Of a DNA stretch of 64,000 nt, positions 2,688 through 56,366 are shown piece by piece. The notes beneath the pieces were generated by a model, which was not told where the DNA came from, made no database searches, and saw nothing but the letters and a program-made list of their open reading frames with translations. Source of the DNA: a virus. The translations under genes were made by a program, and so were the position numbers. Within the stretch, counting starts at the first letter, position 1, and each line of letters opens with the position of its first letter. The stretch covers positions 1-64,000 of IMG/VR virus record IMGVR_UViG_3300036715_002535; one strand, given 5' to 3'.

Positions 2688-3037
2688 AGGTTGCGTCCGT
2701 GATGGTCACTACCACGTGCCCACTCATGGGCAGGTACATCTTCGTAGTCATGAGAGTTTTCATTCAGGAAGGCAACATAGTCGCCGGATGTCTTGCAGAG
2801 AATGCCTTCTTCAAGTTCCTGATCGAAGTGACCGAAGATGTCGGCATCCTCTTCGTTTGGTACTCCTTCGATTGCGTAGACAGTTAGATCATCATCGGCG
2901 CTAGGACCATTCTCAGCCACGAACATTGAAGTTTTCAGGCCACGTGCCAAAACTGCCTGCTTCCAAGATTTGTAGTCCTGGAAGGTTTCGCGGTCATTCG
3001 CTCGTCTCCAGAGATTGGCGGTTACACGGAGCTTCAT
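2684..3037 (-). CDS. Hypothetical protein (117 aa) with MKLRVTA N-terminus
   Basis: Not recognised. It starts at ATG 3037 with a strong GGGAGGTGATCT ribosome site just upstream. The N-terminus MKLRVTANLWRRAND belongs to the recurrent MK-[LF]-x-[IV]-x-A family of starts in this window. The remainder is acidic. It is the first gene of the leftward operon and is divergent from the terminase; the 46 bases between them (3038-3083) must hold both promoters. Confidence 0.6.
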   Translation of the reverse strand: MKLRVTANLWRRANDRETFQDYKSWKQAVLARGLKTSMFVAENGPSADDDLTVYAIEGVPNEEDADIFGHFDQELEEGILCKTSGDYVAFLNENSHDYEDVPAHEWARGSDHHGRNL

Positions 3038-3083
3038 AGATCACCTCCCTATCCATTCTAACCGAAAAAGGTTATCAATACAT

Positions 3084-5420
3084 ATGGCGCGAAGAGAAGT
3101 AGATCCCGTAGACCTTATTGAAAAAGCATTATCGGCGAACTGGGATACGAGTGAATTAGACTCGATGAAGCTGGACATCGAGGAAGCACCGAACTCAATT
3201 CAGTACATGGTGGGATCTCAATTCCATGGTATGTCCCCGTGGCCTCGGCAGATTGAGTTCGCTCTAAAAACCTTTGAAGACTATTGTCCATACTGTAGCG
3301 ACATGACAGTAGTCAACGATTGTTGGGGTAGGTCCCTCGACTCGATTCGAAACCGGGTCCAATTCCTCGAGTTCGGTAAGTGTCCAAAATGTCGAAGAAC
3401 CCGAATTGACTTCTGGAAAGAAGAACTCCATCAGGGTCGCCAAGAACTGATTGGTGTTGCCGGGCAGAGATGCTTGGACCCAGACCTCCTGGTTCGAATG
3501 GCAGACGGCATCTTGGTGTCCCTGGCCCTTCTTAAAAAGGGGGATCTACTCCAGGATCGGAATGGTACAGTCACAGAGGTTACGAAGGTCTGGCCGGTCC
3601 AGGAGCCGGGCTACTTCGTGGTCTTTATGAATCTACCTGATGGAAAGACTATCCCTATCAAGTGTGGACATGAGCATGCCTGGGTAACCGATCGTGGAGT
3701 CATAGCCACAACCGAACTATGCTACGAGGATCGGATTGAGTTTGGTGAGAGCTGGGCAACTGTTCGTATCATCAAGAAGTACCCCGGTAAGCCAGTCAAT
3801 CTGATTGACATCGAAACCACCTCCGGAACCTTTCTCCATGTGTCCGGTCTCACTCTTCACAACTCAGGTAAGACCCTAATCACCGCAGTTTTCTCTTCGT
3901 ACATTCTCCACAAATACCTGAGCATGGATGGTCTGCCATGTAGTCGGTACGGCCTACGTAACACGGTTCTGATGGGAACCTTCATCGCAGCGGACAACAA
4001 GCAGGTATCTGAAACCACCTGGGGACAATTCGCGGCTGAAATTGAATCGTCCCCGTGGTACAAGACGTACTTCGCTTTGCTGAAGGAAGAGGAAAAGCGA
4101 ACCGGTACCGAAATGTACAAGTTCAAGCCAGAGTACGCTCTGGCGTTCATGAACAAGAAGCTTCTATTCTCCCACGCAACAGGTGACTACACTGGACTAC
4201 GTGGACGTACGAGAATCCTGGGAAGCATCGATGAGTTGGGTTGGTTCGAGAGCAACGAACGTGCTAAGAGACGAGCCGGCCTCGAAATCTACACCTCCCT
4301 GAACAACTCCCTTAAGACGATCCGTTCTGCAGCAGATCATAAGCGTATGGAAGGTCAGTACGATCTACCTACCGCGTACATGTTCAATGTATCTTCTCCA
4401 GCAGCGGAAGATGATCCGATCATGACCCTCAAGTCTAAAGCTGGTACCGCGAAGAAGACTTTCTGCTTCCATCTTCCGACCTGGGAAATCAATCCCGGTA
4501 TCTCCCTCGAGGACTTCGAGGATGATATGAAGAAGGATCCAGTTAAGATCATGAGAGACTTTGGTGCCCAGCCGGGTGCCGGTCGTAACATCTATTTGCC
4601 AAACGCAGAGATCATTCTGGCATCTGTGGATGAGAAGCGTGAGAGTGGAATGAAGTTCCACAAGGAGTTCTTGGAAATCGACATCAAGAACACGCCCTAC
4701 ACCTACGTGTATCCCAAGCTAGACCACATCATGCTGGATCGTACTACCCCTTACATTCTCGCAGGTGACGCAGGAGAGTCCGGTAACAGCTTCTCCCTGA
4801 TGCTTTGTAGCTTGGATGAGAACGTGACCATCGTGAATGCGGGTGTGGTTGTTCAGCCGGTGGGTCTTGCTTCAGGTAAGATTGCAACGGTTCACTTCCC
4901 CTCAGTTCTACAGTTCATTCTGGATCTGCGTAGGCATATCACTCTTCGTAAGGTTGTCTTTGATCGTTGGCAGTCCACTTTCGTGATCCAAGCTCTACGT
5001 GATCAGGATATTGATGCAGAGAAGTTCTCTCTTCGTTATGAACACTTCAAGCTATTTAAGCAGAGATTCTACGAAGAAAGATTCAGACTACCCAAGCCAG
5101 AAGTCAGCTTCGACAAGATTATGTTACAGCATTTAGACGACAAACAACCTTCGGCTCTGTTGATCAAGCAGCTGAGAACTGTGAGGGATAATGGTCGTCA
5201 GGTCATGAAGCCCGCTGCGGAAGATGACGATCTCTTCCGTTGCCTAGTATTGGCGGACAAGTTCCTGCAGGAGGATCCGGAGGCTTTCAGAAAGATCGAT
5301 GTGCTTCGTGGTCGTGGTGGTCACTTCGCAACCTATTCTTCGAAGGAGATCCCGAAACAGAAGTTCAATATCCAATTGAACACCGGTCGGACGTTCATCC
5401 AGAAGAAAAAGACAAGATGA
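3084..5420 (+). CDS. terL: Terminase large subunit (DNA packaging ATPase/nuclease) interrupted by a mini-intein
   Basis: The phage DNA packaging motor. The ATPase Walker A loop is AGQR/SGKT, split after Arg by an intein at 3471-3863. Walker B is RILGSIDE. The RNase H-like nuclease domain shows candidate acidic residues in ILAGDAGESGN, VVFDRWQS and DDDLFRCLVLADKF. The preprotein is 778 residues and the spliced protein would be 647, normal for this family. An early zinc-type pair of CxxC motifs (YCPYC and KCPKC, about residues 69-115) precedes the ATPase. I chose ATG 3084 (MARREVD) over in-frame starts upstream because those lie in the divergent promoter region and over the opposite gene. Confidence 0.95.
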   Translation: MARREVDPVDLIEKALSANWDTSELDSMKLDIEEAPNSIQYMVGSQFHGMSPWPRQIEFALKTFEDYCPYCSDMTVVNDCWGRSLDSIRNRVQFLEFGKCPKCRRTRIDFWKEELHQGRQELIGVAGQRCLDPDLLVRMADGILVSLALLKKGDLLQDRNGTVTEVTKVWPVQEPGYFVVFMNLPDGKTIPIKCGHEHAWVTDRGVIATTELCYEDRIEFGESWATVRIIKKYPGKPVNLIDIETTSGTFLHVSGLTLHNSGKTLITAVFSSYILHKYLSMDGLPCSRYGLRNTVLMGTFIAADNKQVSETTWGQFAAEIESSPWYKTYFALLKEEEKRTGTEMYKFKPEYALAFMNKKLLFSHATGDYTGLRGRTRILGSIDELGWFESNERAKRRAGLEIYTSLNNSLKTIRSAADHKRMEGQYDLPTAYMFNVSSPAAEDDPIMTLKSKAGTAKKTFCFHLPTWEINPGISLEDFEDDMKKDPVKIMRDFGAQPGAGRNIYLPNAEIILASVDEKRESGMKFHKEFLEIDIKNTPYTYVYPKLDHIMLDRTTPYILAGDAGESGNSFSLMLCSLDENVTIVNAGVVVQPVGLASGKIATVHFPSVLQFILDLRRHITLRKVVFDRWQSTFVIQALRDQDIDAEKFSLRYEHFKLFKQRFYEERFRLPKPEVSFDKIMLQHLDDKQPSALLIKQLRTVRDNGRQVMKPAAEDDDLFRCLVLADKFLQEDPEAFRKIDVLRGRGGHFATYSSKEIPKQKFNIQLNTGRTFIQKKKTR
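3471..3863 (+). other. Mini-intein (131 aa) in the terminase Walker A motif
   Basis: The insertion begins with Cys130 (CLDPD) and ends with His259-Asn260. The +1 extein residue is Ser261 of SGKT, so the splice joins AGQR to SGKT and restores the P-loop. Block A is CLDPDLLVRMADG; the block B His lies in CGHEHAW; block F/G is HVSGLTLHN. At 131 residues there is no room for a homing endonuclease domain, so it is a minimal splicing-only intein. Splicing would be required for terminase activity. Confidence 0.93.
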
Positions 5421-25291: not shown

Positions 25292-25328
25292 AAAAGGGAG
25301 GATCTTTCGATCCCCCCTTTTTTTTCTT
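25292..25328. terminator. Bidirectional intrinsic terminator between convergent genes
   Basis: A stem of GGGAGGATC (25296-25304) and GATCCCCCC (25309-25317), one mismatch, with a four-base loop. Eight T follow on the plus strand and four T on the minus strand. Read from the minus strand the loop is GAAA, a stable tetraloop. It sits 16 bases after the rightward gene and touches the end of the leftward fibre gene. Confidence 0.9.
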
Positions 25329-28311
25329 AGTTCACGGTTTCGATCTTGATCATATTGTGGGCCGGGTATTCTCCAGCAACGTATACGTGACCGTTGTCCA
25401 TCGTGAGATGATAGACATCCACGTATTCTTCCATGGGCCTGACTTCGAGAACCTTGACAGCTTCCAGAGTATTGAGTTCCATGTTATGCCACAGAATCGA
25501 ATCCCCGGTTGCCAAATCTCTTGCCGATGGGTAAGAGGGTTCGCCGTCCACCACCTTGGTGAGGCGATGGTCGTGAGAGCAAACCAGTGAGCTCTTGTCC
25601 GTAACGATGGTGAAGAGCTGACGGTTCTCGTACTTGAACGTTGCAGTAACTGTCGCAAAGATAGGTTCGAGGGTGTGCTCGTCGAATCCAATAGCAACAT
25701 CTCCAACCTTCAGGAGTTCGACTGGGATATAGCCAGTAGATGTGAGGATGAGAGTTCCTGCCGGTACGCAACCACCGCCTCCACCGCCTCCACCGCCTCC
25801 TCCACCACCGCCACTGGAGTAGACCAATTCCGAGATGGAAATTGTCTTGCTTACCGAAGTGGATCCCACGCAATTCAAAGTAACCGTTACGGTATAGGGG
25901 AAAGTTCCAAGAGCTGTAGTGCTGAAGGTCATGTTGAGCGTAGAACCGGTGATGGATGCTCCAGGTAGATTACCACCTGATAGGGTCCAGGTAAGAGCAC
26001 TTCCATTTCCGCCAGTACCACTCAAAGGTAAGGTATAAACACCGGAAGAATTCTGGATGAATGAGAAGGTGTAAGCATCCAGGTTGGTGATGACAAGGGG
26101 CTGAGTAACGAACTGATTCACTGTTACAGAAATTCCCGTTGTTACCGTATGGAGAGAGTCCACGGCTTGTAAATTGACGGTATAGACATCTGGCACCGCG
26201 CCTGGATCCGGAACTGATGCGGTTAGAAGATTGCCGGCGACGGCGGCACCTGGAAGGGTAGTTCCTGCTAACAAAGACCAAGTGACGGGACCTTGTGCGT
26301 TTGTAGCTTGAAGTGGAATTACAATGGACCAGGGATAGGTAACGGAAGCATCCGCTTGGAAGTTCTCATTGAGATTGATAATCGTCAGTGTGGATGTTGG
26401 CGCGAGCTGACCGAGGTATTTGTGGCTAAAGTGAATCAGCTGCCACCAGTAGTAGTCGTGGTTGCAAGTGATGCACAGTTTGGCACCAGCGCCCAACCAT
26501 CCAATCCAGAGGGTTGGATGCGCACAGTCGACGGATTCTCCTGGGCTATGATTGATAGTTGCATCCGAATTTAGTCTTCCCCAAGTAGCTACTGGATCCA
26601 TCATAACGTTGATTTGGAGTGAAGTGTTTGAGTTACCACCAGAGTCTCTTCCATTGTTTATCATAAGAGAACTGAGTTCATAGATTCCGGCTTTGGCTAC
26701 AGTGAAGACTCCAGTTGCAGAATCATAATCAATGTTCACCCCGCTATGATACTGTTCGGAGAACTTTACCGGATTTGAAGTCAACTTCCATATATTTCCT
26801 TGACCGTTGATGTTCGTGTAGTAACCAACGGATGCGTAAGGTTCAATGATCTGATTAATAATATCGATCTTACGAACTACCCCGGCATCTACCAAAGGTG
26901 ACTGGTTTACCACAACGCTCTGATCAAAGGTCTTCGCACCAGCAATTGACTGAGCCGTGGACTTAGTAACAAAGTCCGCTACCCGTGCTGCAGTGAAGTA
27001 AAGATTAGACCCTTCTGGAATGTTCGTTGTCGAAAGACTTACCGCTCCGGTGAAAGTATTGACGCTGGTGACGCCTGCTGTGATGTGATTGACATTGTAA
27101 TCCAACTTCTGGATGGCCTGCAGGATAGTATCCGAAGCAGTCAAAGCACCTGAGGTCGAAGTGAAACCGGATAAAGTAGCGCCGATTGCAAGTTCATTTG
27201 TGAAGTATTGATTTCCACTTTCAGGAACGTTCGCAGTGGTAAGCGTAACCACTCCTGTTAGACCGTTCACTGAAAGAATGTCTGAACTACCACCCTGGAT
27301 GAGATCCCATTTCACTCCATCAAAGACGATCAGATCCCCGAGGGTCCAGTTGGCATTGCCATCGATGGAAGTTGTTCCGGGTGTTGCTACCTTGTAGTAG
27401 TATCCCTTCGTTCCAGTTCCAGAGGAAATTGTCGGAGTATTGGTTGCTGCGTCCCAGGTTCCCTGATAATTCATCGCACCCAGAACCGCATCCGGCAAGT
27501 AGGCTGTTGAGATCTTGGTATCTGCACCCAGTGGGACGATACCGCCAGGGCTACCAACCAGAAGGTGCTGCATGATGTCAGCATCAAGGTAAGGAAGACC
27601 ATAACCGGACCAGGTAGTTGGATGGGTCTGGAGAGCAGCAAAGTCCAAAGTCTGCCAGGTCTTATCCCCTCTCCAATACTGGGTTGCCGTCCCCATCGGA
27701 TGAAGAGGTTCCTTACCAGAATCCAGAGTTGCGAGGCTGGAATCTATTTTGTTCAGATCTGCATCTGTTGCGGATCTTGGAAGAAGGTAACGTGGAGAGA
27801 TATCCCCGGGTCCGATTGCAATTCCCTTGATGCTCACTGCAGTGACGGATGGAGCATCGATTCGAATCTTGAAAGCGTTTGTAGATGCAATTGAGAAGGA
27901 CTGAGCATTGAGAATGTACCCATCGGTCTCAGTTGGAGTAGCGTTCAGAAGGAAGTTCTTCGAAGGATTGGTATCCCCATCCAGAAGGGTGACTGTGATC
28001 CATTCTGCTGTTGCGGATGAGGGTTTGTAGAAAAGTGTGATGGTGTAGGAACTAATACCCAGACCAGCACCTGGATAGGAGAACGATTGGTCCGCTTCGA
28101 TCTGCTCTAGACGACCACCACCGGGATTCAGATTGATAGTGGCAGATTCTGGTGTAGAATCTGACTTGGATCCATTGGACAAAACCCAGCCATAGATCTG
28201 AGTCGGGTCCTGAAGGTTGTGACCGAAGAAAGGATTCGCGACCAGATTTACGTTACGGTATCTCTGTTCATCCTGTAAACCGTTTAAACTAAGGTTAACG
28301 AGGCTCTTCAT
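25327..28311 (-). CDS. Large tail fibre with C-terminal Hint (intein-like) domain (994 aa)
   Basis: A fibre containing the same modules as the 15233 fibre (YQGTWDAATNTP, DGNANWTLGDLIVFDG, NLYFTAAR; about residues 275-470). Two cadherin/Ig-like domains follow (about 650-830, PLVITNLDAYTFSF and similar), then a run of 14 Gly (residues 834-847), then a Hint domain from Cys848 to Asn986 and only eight further residues. The start is ATG 28311 with GGGAG upstream. The Hint end suggests self-cleavage or ligation of the fibre tip (see findings). Confidence 0.9.
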   Translation of the reverse strand: MKSLVNLSLNGLQDEQRYRNVNLVANPFFGHNLQDPTQIYGWVLSNGSKSDSTPESATINLNPGGGRLEQIEADQSFSYPGAGLGISSYTITLFYKPSSATAEWITVTLLDGDTNPSKNFLLNATPTETDGYILNAQSFSIASTNAFKIRIDAPSVTAVSIKGIAIGPGDISPRYLLPRSATDADLNKIDSSLATLDSGKEPLHPMGTATQYWRGDKTWQTLDFAALQTHPTTWSGYGLPYLDADIMQHLLVGSPGGIVPLGADTKISTAYLPDAVLGAMNYQGTWDAATNTPTISSGTGTKGYYYKVATPGTTSIDGNANWTLGDLIVFDGVKWDLIQGGSSDILSVNGLTGVVTLTTANVPESGNQYFTNELAIGATLSGFTSTSGALTASDTILQAIQKLDYNVNHITAGVTSVNTFTGAVSLSTTNIPEGSNLYFTAARVADFVTKSTAQSIAGAKTFDQSVVVNQSPLVDAGVVRKIDIINQIIEPYASVGYYTNINGQGNIWKLTSNPVKFSEQYHSGVNIDYDSATGVFTVAKAGIYELSSLMINNGRDSGGNSNTSLQINVMMDPVATWGRLNSDATINHSPGESVDCAHPTLWIGWLGAGAKLCITCNHDYYWWQLIHFSHKYLGQLAPTSTLTIINLNENFQADASVTYPWSIVIPLQATNAQGPVTWSLLAGTTLPGAAVAGNLLTASVPDPGAVPDVYTVNLQAVDSLHTVTTGISVTVNQFVTQPLVITNLDAYTFSFIQNSSGVYTLPLSGTGGNGSALTWTLSGGNLPGASITGSTLNMTFSTTALGTFPYTVTVTLNCVGSTSVSKTISISELVYSSGGGGGGGGGGGGGGCVPAGTLILTSTGYIPVELLKVGDVAIGFDEHTLEPIFATVTATFKYENRQLFTIVTDKSSLVCSHDHRLTKVVDGEPSYPSARDLATGDSILWHNMELNTLEAVKVLEVRPMEEYVDVYHLTMDNGHVYVAGEYPAHNMIKIETVN
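25354..25770 (-). other. Hint domain (bacterial-intein-like) at fibre C-terminus
   Basis: 139 residues: block A CVPAGTLILTSTGY (residues 848-861), GDVAIGFD, block B VCSHDHRLT (about 911-919), then block F/G VYVAGEYPAHN ending at Asn986. The next residue is Met, not Cys, Ser or Thr, so canonical splicing is not expected. This is the layout of bacterial-intein-like and hedgehog-type Hint domains that cleave or transfer the upstream chain. Confidence 0.88.
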
Positions 28312-28355: not shown

Positions 28356-29534
28356 TTAGGTTTCGGATTTCAACCGATCCTGCCCTTTGGTAAACTTTCG
28401 CCTACCACGAGGTCTTACAGATCGTCCATCCGCAGTAACCGGTTCGCCACCGGCCATAACTCTCTTACCCTCTTCTCGCAAGTTGATCGAAGCGTTGACA
28501 TCCCGATCATGCCTTTCACCACACTTGCTACATGTCCAGAATCGATCACTAAGTGACAATTTCTGTTGGTGGTAGCACCTGTGACAGAGCTGGCTGGAAG
28601 GGAACCAACGATCAACCTTGAGAACTACTTTACCAGTCCATCTGGCTTTGTACTGGCACATAGTAACGAAGGTTGACCAGCTTGAGTCCTGAATAGCTTT
28701 TGCTAAGCAATGGTTCTGCGTCATACCTTTCACGTTCAGATCCTCGAACACTAGAACTTGGTTCTCGTTCACTAGTTTCGTGGACAGTTTATGGAGAAAA
28801 TCCTTTCGAACATTCTGGATCTTCTCGTACACTTTTGCTACTTGAATTCTTGCTTTGTCCCTCCCTTTGGAACCTTTCCGTTTTCGTGCTAAATGTCTCT
28901 GTCTTCGTTTCAGAAGTTGTTCGTATCGTTTGATGTTGGGTTTGTTGAATTTGCTACCTTCCGAAGTAGCTACAAACGTAGTCAAGCCTAGGTCAAGTCC
29001 AATTACTCTACCGTGCGTAGAAGGGGTAGGTTCTGGTTGACCATCATCTACCAAGATGGATACGAAGTACCTTCCTGAAGGTTTCTTCCGTACTGTCACG
29101 GTTTTCATCTTTCCTTCAAAGGTTCGATCTTGTACGAACCGAACTTTCCCAATCCTAGGAATCTGAATCTTCTCCCCTTCGATCCTTACCCCTTGAGGGA
29201 ACTGGATACTTTGTTCGGAAGATTTTTTCTTAAATCTTGGGTATTTAGCACGTTTCTCGAAGAAATTTATATAGGCTTGACTAAGATTTCGGCAAGTCAT
29301 CTGAAGTGCTTGGGAGTAGGTTTCTTTCAACCAGGAAGTTTCTTCGTGCTTCTTCATTTCTGGAAGTAGGTTGATCAGATCAATCCAACTCAAACTTTTC
29401 CCAGTTTCCCTGTATGTCTTCTGAGATATCTCTAGACAATGATTCCATAGCCAACGGCAAGAACCAAAATTACTTTCTAACGAAGCTCTTTGAGCTTCGG
29501 TAGGATACATTCGATATTGATACGCTTTCAGCAC
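28356..29534 (-). CDS. tnpB: TnpB/IS605-OrfB RNA-guided nuclease (392 aa)
   Basis: Full-length TnpB. The RuvC-type active site is Asp181 (VIGLDLGL), Glu264 (VFEDLN) and Asp345 (HDRDVNAS). The zinc finger is C317-x2-C320 and C335-x2-C338 between the last two motifs. The N-terminal KAYQYRMYPT start and C-terminal basic tail are typical. GTG start at 29534. There is no tnpA in the window, so it would be a stand-alone element mobilised in trans or domesticated. TnpB cuts DNA guided by an omega RNA made from its own 3' end. Confidence 0.95.
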   Translation of the reverse strand: MLKAYQYRMYPTEAQRASLESNFGSCRWLWNHCLEISQKTYRETGKSLSWIDLINLLPEMKKHEETSWLKETYSQALQMTCRNLSQAYINFFEKRAKYPRFKKKSSEQSIQFPQGVRIEGEKIQIPRIGKVRFVQDRTFEGKMKTVTVRKKPSGRYFVSILVDDGQPEPTPSTHGRVIGLDLGLTTFVATSEGSKFNKPNIKRYEQLLKRRQRHLARKRKGSKGRDKARIQVAKVYEKIQNVRKDFLHKLSTKLVNENQVLVFEDLNVKGMTQNHCLAKAIQDSSWSTFVTMCQYKARWTGKVVLKVDRWFPSSQLCHRCYHQQKLSLSDRFWTCSKCGERHDRDVNASINLREEGKRVMAGGEPVTADGRSVRPRGRRKFTKGQDRLKSET

Positions 29535-32207: not shown

Positions 32208-32238
32208 CCCTTGACATTTAAATCGTCAGGGGTATATT
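32208..32238 (+). promoter_or_regulatory. Dyad promoter-operator, copy with imperfect right arm
   Basis: TTGACA 32211-32216, TATATT 32233-32238, spacer 16. Left arm CCCTTGACA; right arm CGTCAGGGG departs by two bases from the consensus. Drives the 32257 and 32462 genes. Confidence 0.85.
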
Positions 32239-34072: not shown

Positions 34073-34093
34073 GACCCAGTTCCACAAAATATG

Positions 34094-34124
34094 CCCTTGA
34101 CATTTAAACCGTCAAGGGCATATT
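34094..34124 (+). promoter_or_regulatory. Dyad promoter-operator giving a near-leaderless start
   Basis: TTGACA 34097-34102, CATATT 34119-34124, spacer 16. Arms CCCTTGACA and CGTCAAGGG. The ATG at 34130 lies 5 bases after the -10 box. Confidence 0.85.
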
Positions 34125-34129
34125 TAATT

Positions 34130-35530
34130 ATGGTGAAATTAGAGAACGTCCAACCAGTCCTTGAAGCCATCCGGAACGCGGGTGGCATTCCTATGATCGT
34201 TGGCGGATTCGTTCGCGACCACGTGCTTGGAATAGACTCCAAAGACATCGATATCGAGGTTTACAAAATGACCTCGGACCAGCTTGCCGCCGTTTTAAGC
34301 CGGCATGGGAAGTCGGAAACCGTTGGTGCCTCATATGGGGTCATGAAGCTTTGGATGGATGGGCAGGACTACGACTTCACCCTTCCTCGGCGCGACAACA
34401 AGTGTGGTAGGAACCACAAGGACTTCACGGTCGAGATCGATCCAAATATGACATTCGAGGAGGCAGCTTCTCGACGGGACTTTACCTTCAATTCAATCTC
34501 CATGTGCCCCTTTGCCATGCGGGTCGAAGATCCTTTCAATGGCCTGGAGGATTTGGAGAAGGGTCTCATCCGTCATACTTCCATGGCCTTCGTTGAGGAC
34601 CCTCTTCGGGTTCTTCGTGGCATGCAGTTTGCTGGTCGGTTCGATTTCGAGGTGACTTCTGAAACTTCGAAACTCTGCCAGTCCATGTTCGATACCTACG
34701 ACGCTCTTGCCAAGGAGCGGGTGTGGGTCGAATGGGAAAAGTGGGCGACCAAGTCCATCAAGCCTTCCGCTGGAATTCGCTTCCTTGATCAGACTGGCTG
34801 GTTGAAGCACTTCCCTCAGATCGAAGCGCTCAAGGGTATCCCGCAGGATCCCATCTGGCACCCTGAAGGCGATGTCTTTGTGCACACCATGCACGTTGTG
34901 GATGCTGCAGCTCAGATCGCAAAGGACTTCGTTCCGGAAGAGCGCCTCATCACAGTCATGGCGGCTCTCTGCCACGACTTTGGAAAGGTCACCAACACCG
35001 CCTACTTCGGCAAGTTCTCAACCCGCGCTGATGGCACCCAGTTTGAGGTCGAAGGACCTCGTTTCCGTAGTCATGGGCACGAAGCTGCCGGTGAGGATCC
35101 CACTAAGGTGTTCCTCGAAGGTATCGGCGCTCCTCAGCACCTCATCGCAAAGATCGTCCCCCTCGTTACCAACCATCTGGCTCACTGCACCTTCCAAGGT
35201 GAAGCGCCTACTCCTCGGTCTGTTCGCCGGTTGGCCGTTCGACTTCATCCGGCTACCATCGATCAGCTCATCCCTGTCATCCACGCGGATGCCGCTGGGC
35301 GTCCACCCCTTTCGCAGGAACTCCCTACTACGGCAGTCCAGCTCCAGGAGATGGCAAAGCATGTAAGGGTCGCAGATGGTCAGCCGAAGCCGATCGTGAT
35401 GGGACGAGATCTCATCAAGGCCGGTATCAGGCCTGGACCTGAAATGGGACAGATCCTCTCCAAGTTGTACGAGTTGCAGCTTGATGGTGCCTTCGATAAC
35501 GTAGAAGACGGACTGACCTACGTTAAATAA
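34130..35530 (+). CDS. CCA-adding/poly(A) polymerase-like nucleotidyltransferase with HD domain (466 aa)
   Basis: The N-terminal nucleotidyltransferase has GGFVRDHVLG and DIDIEVY (metal-binding DxD), then RRDFTFNSI and EDPLRVLRGMQFAGRF, all class II tRNA nucleotidyltransferase motifs. The C-terminal part carries an HD phosphohydrolase motif (ALCHDFGKV). The overall size fits the multifunctional bacterial CCA enzyme. Role: repair or completion of tRNA 3' CCA ends, useful when host tRNAs are cleaved in defence. The ATG 34130 has no ribosome site and would be almost leaderless. Confidence 0.88.
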   Translation: MVKLENVQPVLEAIRNAGGIPMIVGGFVRDHVLGIDSKDIDIEVYKMTSDQLAAVLSRHGKSETVGASYGVMKLWMDGQDYDFTLPRRDNKCGRNHKDFTVEIDPNMTFEEAASRRDFTFNSISMCPFAMRVEDPFNGLEDLEKGLIRHTSMAFVEDPLRVLRGMQFAGRFDFEVTSETSKLCQSMFDTYDALAKERVWVEWEKWATKSIKPSAGIRFLDQTGWLKHFPQIEALKGIPQDPIWHPEGDVFVHTMHVVDAAAQIAKDFVPEERLITVMAALCHDFGKVTNTAYFGKFSTRADGTQFEVEGPRFRSHGHEAAGEDPTKVFLEGIGAPQHLIAKIVPLVTNHLAHCTFQGEAPTPRSVRRLAVRLHPATIDQLIPVIHADAAGRPPLSQELPTTAVQLQEMAKHVRVADGQPKPIVMGRDLIKAGIRPGPEMGQILSKLYELQLDGAFDNVEDGLTYVK

Positions 35531-43990: not shown

Positions 43991-44665
43991 ATGGAAATGA
44001 CCCCAACCATGAAGCATGAGGTCGAAGCAATCGAGGCGGCTTTCAACGATGGCTACATCTCTCGTTCGGAAGCAGATTCGGCAATCAAGAGGATTCGGAC
44101 CGAACCCTACCTTTTCATCTCGGTTGATGTGGAAGCGGATGGACCCATCCCTGGTCCCCATAATATGCTCTCCCTTGGAGCAGTCGCCTTCACCATCCAC
44201 AAGGGGAACTACAAGGAGCTGGACACCTTCGAGGTGAATCTAGAGCTCCTACCTGAATCCGAACCGATGGATCCTTCGACTGCAAAGTTCTGGAAGGACA
44301 ATCAGGCTGCGTATGATGCTACGCGAGTTAATCAGAAGTCACCCAAGCAATCGATGGAGGACTTCGTCAAGTGGATGGAGACCTTTGGCCGAAAGCCAAC
44401 CTTCATCGCATACCCAGCAGGGTTCGACTTCACCTTCGTGTACTGGTATTTGATGCGGTTCATGAAGAAGAGCCCCTTCAGCTTCAGCGCGCTGGATGTC
44501 AAGACCTTTGCGTGGGCAACCATGGGTGGTGCCTACCACTATGCCATCAAGCGAAACATGCCTAAGAAGTGGTTCGAGGGCTGTGGTGAGCATACCCACG
44601 TGGCAATCGAAGATGCCCGCGAGCAGGCAATCCTCTTCACCAACATCATGAAGGATTCCAAATAG
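43991..44665 (+). CDS. DEDDh 3'-5' exonuclease (224 aa)
   Basis: RNase T/DnaQ-like exonuclease. ExoI motif: Asp46 and Glu48 in LFISVDVEADG. ExoII: AYPAGFDFTFVYW. ExoIII: HTHVAIEDAREQ with His and Asp, giving the DEDDh set. The protein has a 40-residue helical N-terminal extension. Family members trim 3' ends of RNA or DNA. Followed directly by the next operator-promoter. Confidence 0.9.
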   Translation: MEMTPTMKHEVEAIEAAFNDGYISRSEADSAIKRIRTEPYLFISVDVEADGPIPGPHNMLSLGAVAFTIHKGNYKELDTFEVNLELLPESEPMDPSTAKFWKDNQAAYDATRVNQKSPKQSMEDFVKWMETFGRKPTFIAYPAGFDFTFVYWYLMRFMKKSPFSFSALDVKTFAWATMGGAYHYAIKRNMPKKWFEGCGEHTHVAIEDAREQAILFTNIMKDSK

Positions 44666-44696
44666 CCCTTGACAATTAATTCGTCAAGGGTATATT
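44666..44696 (+). promoter_or_regulatory. Dyad promoter-operator
   Basis: TTGACA 44669-44674, TATATT 44691-44696, spacer 16. Arms CCCTTGACA and CGTCAAGGG. It begins immediately after the exonuclease stop and drives the MESH1-like gene. Confidence 0.92.
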
Positions 44697-44714
44697 TGTG
44701 GGGAAGAGGATAAC

Positions 44715-45239
44715 ATGAAGTATACCGAAGCAGCATTCAAAGCTCTCCGCGAAAAGGCAATCAAGCTCGCGATGGAGAAGCACTTTGGTCAGACGTATGG
44801 CAAGGACAAGCCCTACACCTGGCACCTTCGGCATGTAGCTGACAACGCAATGAAGTGGGCACCTTTTCTTCCCTACGGTGCTCCAGTCGAAGCCATCGTC
44901 ATTGCTGCCTGGCTTCATGACATCATCGAGGACGCAGGATTCACCCGCGAAGAGATCGAGTTCCACTTCGGAAGTGAGGTCGCAGAGATCGTCTGGCGCG
45001 TAACGGATGAGGAAGGTGCCAACAGGGCAGAACGGCACGAGAAGACTTACCCGAAGATTCGTGGCTCGGTCTTCTCAGTCTACCTGAAGCTGATGGACCG
45101 AATCTCCAACATCGAAGCCGGCGGCAAGGCTGGGATGTACATCAAGGAGTTCCCGGGCTTCAAGGCGGCTCTCTATAAGGCTGGGGAGTTCGATCCCATC
45201 TGGGAACATCTCGAAATCATCTTGAAGGATGCTGCATGA
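44715..45239 (+). CDS. MESH1/SpoT-like HD hydrolase (174 aa)
   Basis: HD-domain residues in the order of SpoT/MESH1 hydrolases: TWHLRHVAD (first His), AAWLHDIIEDAGFTREEI (HD plus the ED pair typical of ppGpp hydrolases), VTDEEGANRAER, TYPKI, and LKLMDRISNIE (matching K-L-x-D-R-x-x-N of SpoT). It is a single domain, without synthetase, ACT or TGS parts. Expected activity: removal of the 3' pyrophosphate from (p)ppGpp or a related nucleotide. It overlaps the next gene by ATGA. Confidence 0.85.
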   Translation: MKYTEAAFKALREKAIKLAMEKHFGQTYGKDKPYTWHLRHVADNAMKWAPFLPYGAPVEAIVIAAWLHDIIEDAGFTREEIEFHFGSEVAEIVWRVTDEEGANRAERHEKTYPKIRGSVFSVYLKLMDRISNIEAGGKAGMYIKEFPGFKAALYKAGEFDPIWEHLEIILKDAA

Positions 45240-45607
45240 TCTTCGTATTCGGATCCAACCTCGCTGGTATGCACATGGCTGGCGCCGCTGCCTTCGCTGT
45301 TGAAAGGCACGGCGCCATCTTTGGTAAGAAGGATGGACGGCAGGGCAACTCCTACGCCATCCCAACCTGCGACAGCTTCATTGCTCCACTTACGCTGACG
45401 GAGATTCAGATGTACGTGGATGCGTTTATCAACTACACGGTCCAGATACCAGACGAAGAGTTCCAGATCACTCGAATTGGTTGCGGCATTGCCGGTTTCA
45501 CGGATGCTCAGATCGCACCACTATTCAAAGATGCGCCGGTGCTCAACTGCTTGATGCCTCCGGAGTGGGCATCCTACTACCCGAACCATCGTACCTGGAA
45601 GTTCTAG
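45236..45607 (+). CDS. Macro-like phage protein, A1S_2505-type (123 aa)
   Basis: MIFVFGSNLAGMHMAGAA at the N-terminus, then SYAIPT and ITRIGCGIAGFTDAQIAPLF: the strand-loop layout of a small macrodomain-like family frequent in phages (A1S_2505 family as I recall it). Macro proteins bind or hydrolyse ADP-ribose derivatives. Translationally coupled to the ppGpp-hydrolase-like gene. Confidence 0.65.
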   Translation: MIFVFGSNLAGMHMAGAAAFAVERHGAIFGKKDGRQGNSYAIPTCDSFIAPLTLTEIQMYVDAFINYTVQIPDEEFQITRIGCGIAGFTDAQIAPLFKDAPVLNCLMPPEWASYYPNHRTWKF

Positions 45608-46579: not shown

Positions 46580-48391
46580 CTAAGTAGAAAAGGGATCTGA
46601 CATTGGTATTGCTAAGGAGATAACCCGGTCTTTCTCTCTAAACATTAGTCCTAGATTTTCCAGTTTACGTAAAATTCCATCTACATCTCGGTAAGTAAAT
46701 CCATTCGAAAGAAGAATGGGATCCTCCGAAAGGCGGTCAAGTGAAACGATGTCCAAGCAGAGATGGTAGATGCGGCTTTCGTTTTCGTCCAAGGAGTACC
46801 GCGCGGATCTACCCGGTCTCTCATCCTCGACTACTACCTTCTCCCCAAGTCTGTAGTATCTTAGGAGCTTCTGTCCCTTCTTTTGCCGGTAGTTCTGGAT
46901 CCATTCCCTCACCACGCGAGTGAGTTCTAAACTGTAGGGTGCAGAATCAATCCCATCATAGTTGAACTTTGTCGCAATTCTATAGAGCTGTTCTCTATCA
47001 AGCGGGTACAGGAACTGGAAGATTGGTTCTGGATCTCGAATCACAATTCCATATTTCTCCGGGAAGTCGAAGAGCTGGGATCCCCTGGATAGGTAGTATT
47101 CGATCACACCATTCGGAGGATAGAGATGCTGAAGTTTGTAAGCTAGCTCGGCCATTCGCAGGTACTCAGTAGGATCCTCGGAATGGAATCCACGAATGAT
47201 GTTCCAAGTCAAAGGAATGTCCAACCACTTGCAGAACTTCAAAAATCGAACGTTCTGGATTGCTGAAACACCCTTAGAGATAAGCTCGAGGATGGGGGTA
47301 CTAAGACTTTCAATCCCTGGCTGAAGTACCCGCGCTCCGGCCCTCTTTAAAAGTTTCAGATCTTCTAGACCAGTGTTACTCTTGAGTTCGAAGAAGAGCT
47401 CTAGGTTGTACTTCGACTCAATCAACGATTCGAGAATCTTAGTCCCGTCCTTGTAATCGAGGATACTGTCGACTGCGTAGAACTTGTACACCCCATGCTG
47501 ATCTGCAAGACGAAGAACATCGGCTACAACCTTCTCCCAGTTCTTCCTTCGGTAAGGAGTAGTGAAGACATCTTCCGCACAGAATGTGCAAGGGTGCTTG
47601 AAACCCCACCAGCAACCACGACCGGTCTCGTACTGAATGTATACGTCCCGCTTGACCTCATCCAGTTTCAACCTATCGATACGTTCAAAGAACTCCTCGT
47701 GATTGGGATCCTCGAATTGATCACCCTCGACCTTGTTCGACAGGTCTGCAAAGTAGATTCCAAGATCCGAACGAATGGACGCACAGGGATGAGAGGTCAA
47801 ACCTGCCTGCAACCCCTTTACGAACTCCGGTAGAGCTACCTCAGCATCACCATGCCAGATCGCATCCAACCATCCGAAGTTTTCAAGTAGGGCTTCTCCT
47901 ACACCATGGACAAGTCCCGGTCCACCAAAGATGACCTTGATACGAGGATTCAGCTCTTTGATTCTCTTCGCCAGAACCAGGGAAGCAACGAACTGAGCAA
48001 GCACTATTGTGAAGCCCACAATCTTAGGATTTGATTCTACGATCTCAAGAGCCAGCTTCTCCACGAATTCCGGGGTTGCCGCTTTGATGTCGAAGTACAG
48101 ATCAGGAAGAATCTGCTGAAGGGTCTCAGAGTCGTCTATCCCTTTGAAGGTGGGGTTAGTGAAGACCCACTCCGCGTACTCCATGCTCTGACTGATCTCT
48201 AGGTACTGTAGCCTACTGGTTACAAGCTTTCGTTCGTACAGGAAAGAGTAGTAATCCAGGTTCGCGGAAAGAGACCCAACCTTGAGACCCGCTTTACTTA
48301 GAACGGTATGAACGATTCCAAGTTGAATACTTGGGTCCAGAGTAACCCACGGCATCGAAACCGTTAGGAAATCTAGATCCTTTGGGATCAT
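46580..48391 (-). CDS. Radical SAM protein of RiPP-maturation type (603 aa)
   Basis: Residues 1-200 resemble a B12-binding (Rossmann-like) domain, with IVGFTIVLAQFVASLVLA and VIFGGPGLVHGVGE. The radical SAM core begins at YETGRGCWWGFKHPCTFC: Cys260, Cys268 and Cys271 in a CX7CX2C arrangement, the unusual cluster motif of the RiPP-maturation radical SAM protein 1 group (TIGR03975-type). Later motifs ARVLQPGIESL and WNIIRGFHSEDP also fit. The C-terminal 150 residues may bind a peptide. TAATG overlap with the Cys-rich gene upstream. Confidence 0.75.
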   Translation of the reverse strand: MIPKDLDFLTVSMPWVTLDPSIQLGIVHTVLSKAGLKVGSLSANLDYYSFLYERKLVTSRLQYLEISQSMEYAEWVFTNPTFKGIDDSETLQQILPDLYFDIKAATPEFVEKLALEIVESNPKIVGFTIVLAQFVASLVLAKRIKELNPRIKVIFGGPGLVHGVGEALLENFGWLDAIWHGDAEVALPEFVKGLQAGLTSHPCASIRSDLGIYFADLSNKVEGDQFEDPNHEEFFERIDRLKLDEVKRDVYIQYETGRGCWWGFKHPCTFCAEDVFTTPYRRKNWEKVVADVLRLADQHGVYKFYAVDSILDYKDGTKILESLIESKYNLELFFELKSNTGLEDLKLLKRAGARVLQPGIESLSTPILELISKGVSAIQNVRFLKFCKWLDIPLTWNIIRGFHSEDPTEYLRMAELAYKLQHLYPPNGVIEYYLSRGSQLFDFPEKYGIVIRDPEPIFQFLYPLDREQLYRIATKFNYDGIDSAPYSLELTRVVREWIQNYRQKKGQKLLRYYRLGEKVVVEDERPGRSARYSLDENESRIYHLCLDIVSLDRLSEDPILLSNGFTYRDVDGILRKLENLGLMFREKDRVISLAIPMSDPFST

Positions 48392-49887: not shown

Positions 49888-50542
49888 TTACTTTCCTTTC
49901 AACCAAGAATCAAGAGGAAATTTCTGTCCTGTACGATGATCCAGGATAAGATTGTCCTGAAACCGGTAAGTTCGGATCTTGTCTCCCCTTTGCCCAGAGC
50001 CAATCTTGTCTTTTCGTTCTCGATTGATGTCTGCGTGAGCATTATTCTTTACCAGCTCCTGAAGTTTCATCTCCAACAGCTCCAATGCAACTACACGATT
50101 CCGGATCTGAGACCTGCCATCGATCCGGACTTGAAGACCGGTCGGCTTGTGGGTCGCAATAACACAGGATTCTACCTTGTTGCGGTGCTGCCCTCCAGGA
50201 CCACTGCCCCGGGTAGTTCTAACGTCTATATCCCGCAAATTTAAAGATGCCGCGCGGTTCTGGAGCTCATAACAGGCCACGGTTATGGTAGAGGTGTGAA
50301 CTCTACCCTTCTTCTCTGTAGGTGGAATACGCTGGAAGCGATGTCCTCCACTCCCTTGAAGAAATTCACCGGCGCTATCACCCTTGATGAGAAGGGAAGC
50401 GAAGCCAGGCGCCTCTTCTAAGAGTTCGGTCTCAAAGTCCCCTCCGCTCCGTCCGACGTAAATAGGCTTTCAGTTGATCCCTGACGAGTAGGACTGCATC
50501 GTCCCCACCCTCAGCAGCTCGAATCTCAAGAATGAGTTCCAT
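49888..50542 (-). CDS. Peptide chain release factor-like protein, expressed by apparent +1 frameshift (217 aa)
   Basis: ATG 50542 with AAGGAGGTG four bases upstream reads MELILEIRAAEGGDDAVLL up to Leu36, then TGA (50434-50432). In the +1 frame the protein goes on without missing residues as ETELLEEAPGF, then PPTEKKGRVHTS, the peptidyl-hydrolase loop GSGPGGQHRN, and GSGQRGDKIRTYRFQDN. This aligns with class I release factors (RGFKTEIIEES region of RF2). Domain 1 is absent. The codon-recognition site resembles RF1 (P-x-T). The break carries the prfB signal (see next entry). First gene of the operon down to 45604. Confidence 0.85.
50432..50445 (-). promoter_or_regulatory. prfB-like +1 recoding signal
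   Basis: On the minus strand: GGAGG (50445-50441), spacer GGA, then CTT (50437-50435) and TGA (50434-50432) followed by G. Bacterial RF2 genes use an internal Shine-Dalgarno three bases before CUU-UGA to shift +1. Here the next base is G instead of the usual C. The position is in the middle of a conserved domain-2 helix instead of codon 26. Confidence 0.8.
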
Positions 50543-55697: not shown

Positions 55698-56366
55698 TTG
55701 GCAAAGGCAGTCGTTATCCTATCCGGCGGAATGGACTCAGTCGTTCTAGCCTACTTCCTCAAGAACCAAGGCTACGAACTCAGTTGCCTGTCGTTCAACT
55801 ACGGTCAGCGCCACGCGAAGGAACTCGGGTTCGCGGAGCAGTGCGCGAAGGATGTCCGGTCCCCTTGGCACCTGGTCGATCTCAGCACCATCCAGGGTCT
55901 TCTGCCTGGTTCATCTCTCACTGACAGCTCGATCGAGGTTCCCGAAGGGCACTTCGAAGCGGAGATCATGAAGGCCACGGTAGTGCCCAATCGGAATGCG
56001 ATCATGCTTTCGATTGCGTGGGGCCACGCAGTTGCCATCGGAGCGGATGTGGTAGCCTTTGGCGCTCACGCGGGTGACCATGCTATCTACCCTGATTGCC
56101 GTCCAGAGTTCTGGGAGAAGATCGAAGCCGGGTTCAAGTCTGGCAACGAGGGCTTTGGCAATCCAGAACTTCGACTGTACCCACCTTTCATCAAGATCAC
56201 CAAGGCGGATATCACCAAGCGTGGGTACGATCTGGGTGTCAACTACGCGTACACCTGGAGCTGCTACAAGGGTGGGGAGAAGCACTGTGGCAAGTGTGGA
56301 ACTTGCGTGGAGCGGAAGGAAGCCTTCGAGCTGGCAGGTGTTCCTGACCCAACGGTGTACGAATGA
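55698..56366 (+). CDS. queC: 7-cyano-7-deazaguanine synthase
   Basis: Converts CDG to preQ0 using ATP and ammonia. The ATP pyrophosphatase loop is LSGGMDSVVLA (residues 8-18). Zinc ligands near the C-terminus: WSCYKGGEKHCGKCGTC (about residues 189-205). Internal FNYGQRHAKE and VPNRNAIML match QueC. Length 222 is normal. TTG 55698 has AGGAGAG upstream. In phages this pathway feeds 7-deazaguanine DNA modification that blocks restriction. No queD, queE or folE was seen in this window. Confidence 0.95.
   Translation: MAKAVVILSGGMDSVVLAYFLKNQGYELSCLSFNYGQRHAKELGFAEQCAKDVRSPWHLVDLSTIQGLLPGSSLTDSSIEVPEGHFEAEIMKATVVPNRNAIMLSIAWGHAVAIGADVVAFGAHAGDHAIYPDCRPEFWEKIEAGFKSGNEGFGNPELRLYPPFIKITKADITKRGYDLGVNYAYTWSCYKGGEKHCGKCGTCVERKEAFELAGVPDPTVYE

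Follow-up and report, generated by a model that had tools for sequence, protein, structure and literature searches.

Two short overlapping genes in a phage genome, one encoding a predicted relative of RelA/SpoT-type hydrolases and the other a macro-like protein, raise the question of what such a combination would do during infection and whether its two parts would work together. The original prediction was that the pair could remove signals carried by alarmones or ADP-ribose. The question is of wider interest because phage HD 'alarmone hydrolases' are widespread and a substrate has been tested for almost none of them. Phages were already known to carry both families, and each kind of role had been proposed earlier, counter-defence being suspected. 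What is new is the overlapping pair itself, a macro copy that lacks the catalytic lysine, and the gene context HD-Prs-macro-NadV of the nearest HD relatives.

The stretch of DNA that we analysed, referred to as the window, comprises 64 kb and is the first part of the 111,836-bp virus record IMGVR_UViG_3300036715_002535. The source virus is a large tailed phage with distant relatives only. The portal protein shares about 30% identity with those of Rhizobium and Pseudomonas phages, and a megablast search of the 12-kb neighbourhood against phages gave no match, for which reason we regard the phage as novel.

Organisation of the locus and its promoter

The HD and macro genes (Table 1) overlap as ATGA, the coupling that had originally been described. 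An origin by chance is excluded for the HD gene because its product matches PHROG 990, annotated as 'metal-dependent phosphohydrolase' (7e-30), and the RelA/SpoT model TIGR00691 (3e-12), and for the macro gene because its product matches NF049995 (A1S_2505; 1.4e-40 and 137.9 bits, with a curated cut-off of 45) and PHROG 2072 (1e-38). The upstream exonuclease gene stops just 5' of the promoter palindrome, so that the pair probably forms a separate transcription unit.

Table 1. Features of the HD-macro locus, with positions as numbered in the window.
Feature	Position	Strand	Basis
Rv2179c-like / RNase T-type 3'-5' exonuclease gene, upstream neighbour	43991..44665	+	PF16473 (4e-9), PF00929 (8.5e-7)
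Promoter with overlapping operator-like palindrome	44666..44696	+	Sequence; one of 13 strong sites
Ribosome-binding site of HD gene, AAGAGGA	44704-44710	+	Sequence
HD gene, predicted RSH-type HD hydrolase, 174 aa	44715..45239	+	Pfam, PHROG, TIGR00691, AlphaFold model
Ribosome-binding site of macro gene, AAGGA, within 3' end of HD gene	45225..45229	+	Sequence
Macro gene, A1S_2505 / N4-gp14 family, 123 aa	45236..45607	+	NF049995, PHROG 2072, AlphaFold model

The promoter carries a dyad, CCCTTGAC-N9-GTCAAGGG (44666-44690), which shares bases with the -35 box of a sigma-70 promoter scoring 11/12 (-35 TTGACA at 44669, a 16-nt spacer, and -10 TATATT at 44691-44696). The dyad promoter of the original prediction is therefore real, and it is not unique to this pair. 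Six near copies of the dyad occur in the window where none would be expected, and a 28-base palindrome, TTGACAnTTnAATnGTCAAGGGTATATT, was found with at most two mismatches at 13 sites in the whole 111.8-kb record. These sites are located in the window at 32211, 34097, 37161, 38846, 44669, 50590, 52473, 53930 and 58562, and beyond it at positions 64146, 70568, 75947 and 83795 of the virus record. The set looks like a phage regulon. Since the promoter-operator is recurrent, the HD-macro pair is probably one transcription unit of this phage-wide regulon and resembles accessory cargo. The palindrome is also present in one other IMG/VR phage, IMGVR_UViG_3300036715_002842; neither an HD nor a macro match was found in its loci with the same promoter family (L202-L204).

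The HD protein, its active site and its relatives

The HD protein consists of an HD domain only, without a synthetase domain, and also matches the Pfam models HD_4 and HD. Its relatives with solved structures are MESH1, SpoT, Rel and bacterial small alarmone hydrolases (SAHs). The HD, ED and DRxxN elements on which the original prediction was built are present as H68-D69, E72-D73 and D128-R-I-S-N132, and the catalytic and metal-binding set H...HD...ED...DxxxN is complete (H37, H68, D69, E72, D73, D128 and N132), with R104 and K125 also kept. Among 74 distinct relatives the metal and catalytic residues, all of them present in the window copy, are 97-100% conserved; there is no variation at H68, D69, D73, K125, D128 and N132, while E72 and R104 are kept in 99%. 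The AlphaFold model (pLDDT 93.5, pTM 0.89) has an RSH hydrolase fold with a complete metal site, and the solved SAHs and MESH1 rank first in comparisons with it (Z 17-20). The top match is the P. aeruginosa SAH (6yvc; Z 20.2), followed by MESH1 (Z 19.2) and C. glutamicum RelH (Z 17.9), the first two aligning over about 162 residues (Z 19-20) at 22-26% identity. SpoT/Rel folds score Z 13-17, and unrelated HD phosphohydrolases about 12 (YpgQ 12.4). Sequence and predicted fold both place the HD protein among the SpoT/MESH1-type small alarmone hydrolases, as had been proposed, and it is plausibly active.

One segment of the protein departs from the usual pattern. RelA/SpoT, MESH1 and the phage SAH PaSpo have Arg-Lys at a position (R44-K45 in RelSeq numbering) where the window protein has Y28-G29 and where Tyr-Gly or Tyr-Asp is found throughout the phage HD clade, 95% of the relatives in this clade having Tyr at position 28. 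Because of this replacement, the substrate cannot be read from family membership and may be other than ppGpp. The P. aeruginosa SAH, although the best fold match, likewise lacks the segment. We therefore regard Arg-Lys as usual rather than universal and do not treat it as defining SAHs, and alarmones are retained as candidate substrates on the same ground. The Tyr-Gly pair may shift the substrate preference without excluding alarmones.

These observations bear on a simple explanation, namely that the HD protein breaks down host (p)ppGpp and thereby keeps starvation signalling from slowing phage replication, and that the macro protein is an unrelated passenger. The RelA/SpoT family signal, the matches to SpoT/Rel folds, the complete HD/ED/DRxxN set and the lack of conservation of the pair (see below) agree with this explanation, whereas the Tyr that most of the clade has for the Arg of ppGpp hydrolases counts against it, though not decisively in view of the P. 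aeruginosa SAH. On balance we consider this explanation unlikely.

Two groups of phage proteins provide the closest comparison. The phage HD-alarmone hydrolases of PHROG 990 (for example those of Tenacibaculum phage PTm1 and the Caulobacter phiCbK group) belong to the same family and have the same stand-alone HD domain, but all of these records are less than 60% identical to the window protein and none has an overlapping macro gene. PaSpo, the toxSAS-neutralising protein of Salmonella phage SSU5, is likewise a phage-encoded stand-alone SAH. It shares the HDxxED, GxNRxxR and C-terminal KLxDxxxN elements with the window protein. The two are diverged homologues (34% over 87 aa), PaSpo keeping the basic Arg-Lys segment where the window protein has Tyr-Gly. 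SSU5_043, located beside the SSU5 ligase, was considered as the SAH of this phage and rejected; the SAH is SSU5_099.

The gene neighbourhoods of the HD relatives suggest a different role. The two nearest relatives (46% and 43%; loci L002 and L004) are found in related IMG/VR phages, in packed operons (L002:3959-7386 and L004:3968-8231) with the order HD, Prs-like (ribose-phosphate pyrophosphokinase-like), macro and NadV-like (nicotinamide phosphoribosyltransferase). The macro protein of these operons matches Pfam Macro, is nearest to DarG models, and belongs to a subfamily unlike that of the window macro. The arrangement is a possible NARP-type NAD+ module, and in the literature searched we found no description of it. 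It provides a concrete alternative to ppGpp, as it suggests a role in NAD+ or ADP-ribose metabolism. Other cases are the gene order HD-NadM-NadV in Mesorhizobium phage Cp1R7A-A1, NadM-NadV about 2.3 kb downstream of HD in Caulobacter and Brevundimonas phages, and a NAPRTase gene directly upstream of HD in locus L071.

The HD protein could accordingly act on a phosphorylated NAD-type nucleotide, for example by dephosphorylating NADP(H) or by trimming ADP-ribose phosphates, while the macro protein handles ADP-ribose, so that NAD+ is supported during an NADase defence. Besides the neighbourhoods just described, this explanation draws on the hydrolysis of NADPH by MESH1 and XccSAH (PMC9765508) and on the observation in PMC9503650 of HD phosphatases coupled to ADP-ribosylglycohydrolases. 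NAPRTase is encoded in 14 of 32 HD-bearing virus records, compared with 22-33% of medium and jumbo phages (PMC9503650), but lies far from HD in 13 of these 14. The adjacencies come from about four lineages and are, by a rough estimate, only modestly above chance, and the macro protein of the L002 and L004 operons is of a different subfamily. HD relatives thus occur with NARP-like genes, whereas a search of the 111.8-kb record of the window phage, which is possibly a fragment, found neither Prs-like nor NadV-like genes and hence none of those for NARP1/NARP2 NAD+ reconstitution (Adps/Prs and Namat/NadV). We regard an NAD+-directed role as possible but rather doubtful.

An ATP-dependent DNA ligase gene is located near HD in 21 of 62 tree rows (17 of 147 scanned neighbour proteins). 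This could indicate that the HD clade cleans up a nucleotide by-product of DNA ligation or replication and has no part in counter-defence. Yet the roughly 20 ligase-adjoining HD genes (L035-L037, L043, L092 and others) belong nearly all to one clade of the HD tree, so that descent from a common ancestor may be enough to account for the link. The window HD, which the tree places only approximately, lies outside this clade. Such a function is very improbable for the window protein. A gene of about 464 aa beside many HD genes was at one point considered as NadV; this assignment was rejected, as the gene encodes the DNA ligase.

The macro protein and its substituted residues

The Pfam Macro model did not recognise the macro protein, which is a clear member of the N4 gp14 / A1S_2505 family (NF049995, PHROG 2072). 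A profile search against the PDB by sequence gave spurious matches only, making a fold comparison necessary; the single sequence weakly picked up the SCO6735 loop. The best of the AlphaFold models (pLDDT 85.9; the remaining four 58-70) is similar to TARG1 (Z 10.2) and DarG (Z 9.8), which are also the top Foldseek matches. The predicted fold is a macrodomain of the TARG1/DarG type, consistent with the macro-like protein of the original prediction. In N4-like phages the gp14 gene belongs to the early region and is close to the genes for RNA polymerase, whereas the window macro gene adjoins the HD gene.

Two near-invariant residues of the family are replaced in the window copy, while N8 and T44 are kept. 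Of 81 distinct relatives, 76 (94%) have Lys at position 45 and 78 (96%) have Gly at loop position 14, where the window copy has Cys and Met, respectively. A profile alignment of the macro family with chromosomal DarG (L198-L201) places IPT-K/C on FPT-K, IGCGLAG on LGCGNGG, and SNLAG-HGAG on the Asn/MGKG loop of DarG; its score is weak (probability 11%, E 0.003), and the motifs coincide. By this alignment Cys45 corresponds to Lys80 of DarG, the counterpart of which in TARG1, likewise catalytic, is Lys84; with DarG and TARG1 the window macro shares the fold, the Asn and the glycine-loop motifs. Lys80 of DarG is catalytic, the K80A variant being inactive (PMC5179494). SCO6735 uses Gln there (PMC9411070), so that replacement of the lysine alone is no proof that activity has been lost. 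The C-terminal DarT-binding domain of DarG is absent from the window macro, which ends at 123 aa and has no PADLOC match; PADLOC gave nothing meaningful. Because of Cys45 and Met14, DarG-like catalysis by this copy, and with it the proposed erasure of ADP-ribose signals, is doubtful, whereas the HD half of that proposal stands as plausible. The macro protein probably binds an ADP-ribose-containing ligand.

The substituted copy bears on whether phage macrodomains can switch from enzymes to binders, a change already described for phage proteins with RyR domains (PMC13232231). A broader proposal connects it with the operons of the nearest HD relatives. SAH-type HD proteins and macrodomains would form a recurrent phage module that processes nucleotides derived from ADP-ribose or NAD(P) and not ppGpp, and the window would hold a reduced two-gene form in which the macro protein, lacking the catalytic lysine, serves as an ADP-ribose-type sponge. 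We consider this proposal quite improbable; if it were true, the full HD-Prs-macro-NadV form would extend the known NAD+-reconstitution anti-defence pathways.

Conservation of the pair, its possible role and other genes of the phage

The HD family (PHROG 990) occurs in 346 phage records and the macro family in 348. A search with the concatenated HD and macro sequences showed that in none of the 624 phage records with either gene are both adjacent in the window order, so that the search for similar pairs in phages, as suggested with the original prediction, found none. Of 90 IMG/VR macro loci, two have an HD gene close by, namely the window and L117, and in L117 the macro gene lies beside an HD gene of a different subfamily, in reversed order; this adjacency is about at chance level by a rough estimate, and we gave it no weight. 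Coupling of the two genes is rare and not conserved, for which reason a joint function may be absent.

The best, though still tentative, explanation for the pair, to which we give a little less than an even chance, is that it represents accessory counter-defence cargo whose HD protein undoes the products of host RelA/SpoT-type defence systems. It rests on the ranking of SAHs and MESH1 first by fold, well above other HD phosphohydrolases, on the complete set of catalytic residues, and on two precedents. These are PaSpo of SSU5, which frees tRNA from the modification made by the toxSAS FaRel2 (PMC11559606), and the 'HD-alarmone PDEase', for which a part as a counter-nucleotide weapon has been predicted in jumbo phages (PMC7824862). 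Speaking against it are the Tyr-Gly or Tyr-Asp segment of the clade, the lack of conservation of the pair, the closest HD relatives, which lie in NAD+-synthesis operons and not beside alarmone genes, and another large HD clade, which adjoins DNA ligase.

Under the counter-defence explanation, the two proteins would be produced together by transcription from one copy of the phage-wide promoter-operator and from their overlapping genes. The HD protein would be a stand-alone, metal-dependent SAH with broad 3'-(pyro)phosphohydrolase activity that removes (pyro)phosphate from a nucleotide at the 3' (or 2') position of its ribose. Most likely it would clear ppGpp or ppApp alarmones, or restore 3'-CCA ends of tRNA that a toxSAS has pyrophosphorylated, allowing translation to continue. 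With its Cys45, the macro protein would be less likely to hydrolyse ADP-ribosyl groups in the manner of DarG than to act as a binder (a sponge or decoy) or as an enzyme with an altered mechanism. The two genes, their families and predicted folds, the kept and lost residues, the overlap and the promoter family are observed, whereas enzyme activity and substrate, the use in counter-defence and any collaboration between the proteins are inferred.

The same phage encodes a CCA-adding-type nucleotidyltransferase with an HD domain (window 34091-35530; PolyA_pol 1.8e-20), located directly behind the palindromic promoter copy at 34097, and a stand-alone RF-1 (GGQ) domain protein resembling the ribosome-rescue factor ArfB (window 49888-50280). 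Together with the RNase T-like exonuclease upstream of the HD gene, these suggest a theme of tRNA and translation repair.

Several further genes of the phage were recorded in passing. A B12-radical-SAM RiPP maturation C-methyltransferase (TIGR03975, 7e-129) is encoded at 46580-48391 of the window, and a TnpB/OrfB_IS605-type RNA-guided nuclease gene lies at 28356-29534. A topoisomerase subunit A gene (L188:2542-5367, at about 86.5-89.4 kb of the virus record) is interrupted by an intein (Intein_splicing 1.3e-12). A terminase-like ORF (window 3015-5420) has a mini-intein-like insertion (CLDPDLLVRMADG...SGLTLHN) just before the Walker A motif SGKT, which was read by eye and has no Pfam match at 1e-4. 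A long tail-like protein (window 25327-28311) ends in a HINT domain (PT-HINT 3e-5), the start of which (TSTGYIPVELLKVGDVAIG) is repeated in a second short ORF at L188:1722-1925. Finally, QueC (9e-63), an enzyme of 7-deazaguanine synthesis, is encoded at 55698-56366 of the window and hints at the modification of DNA or tRNA bases.
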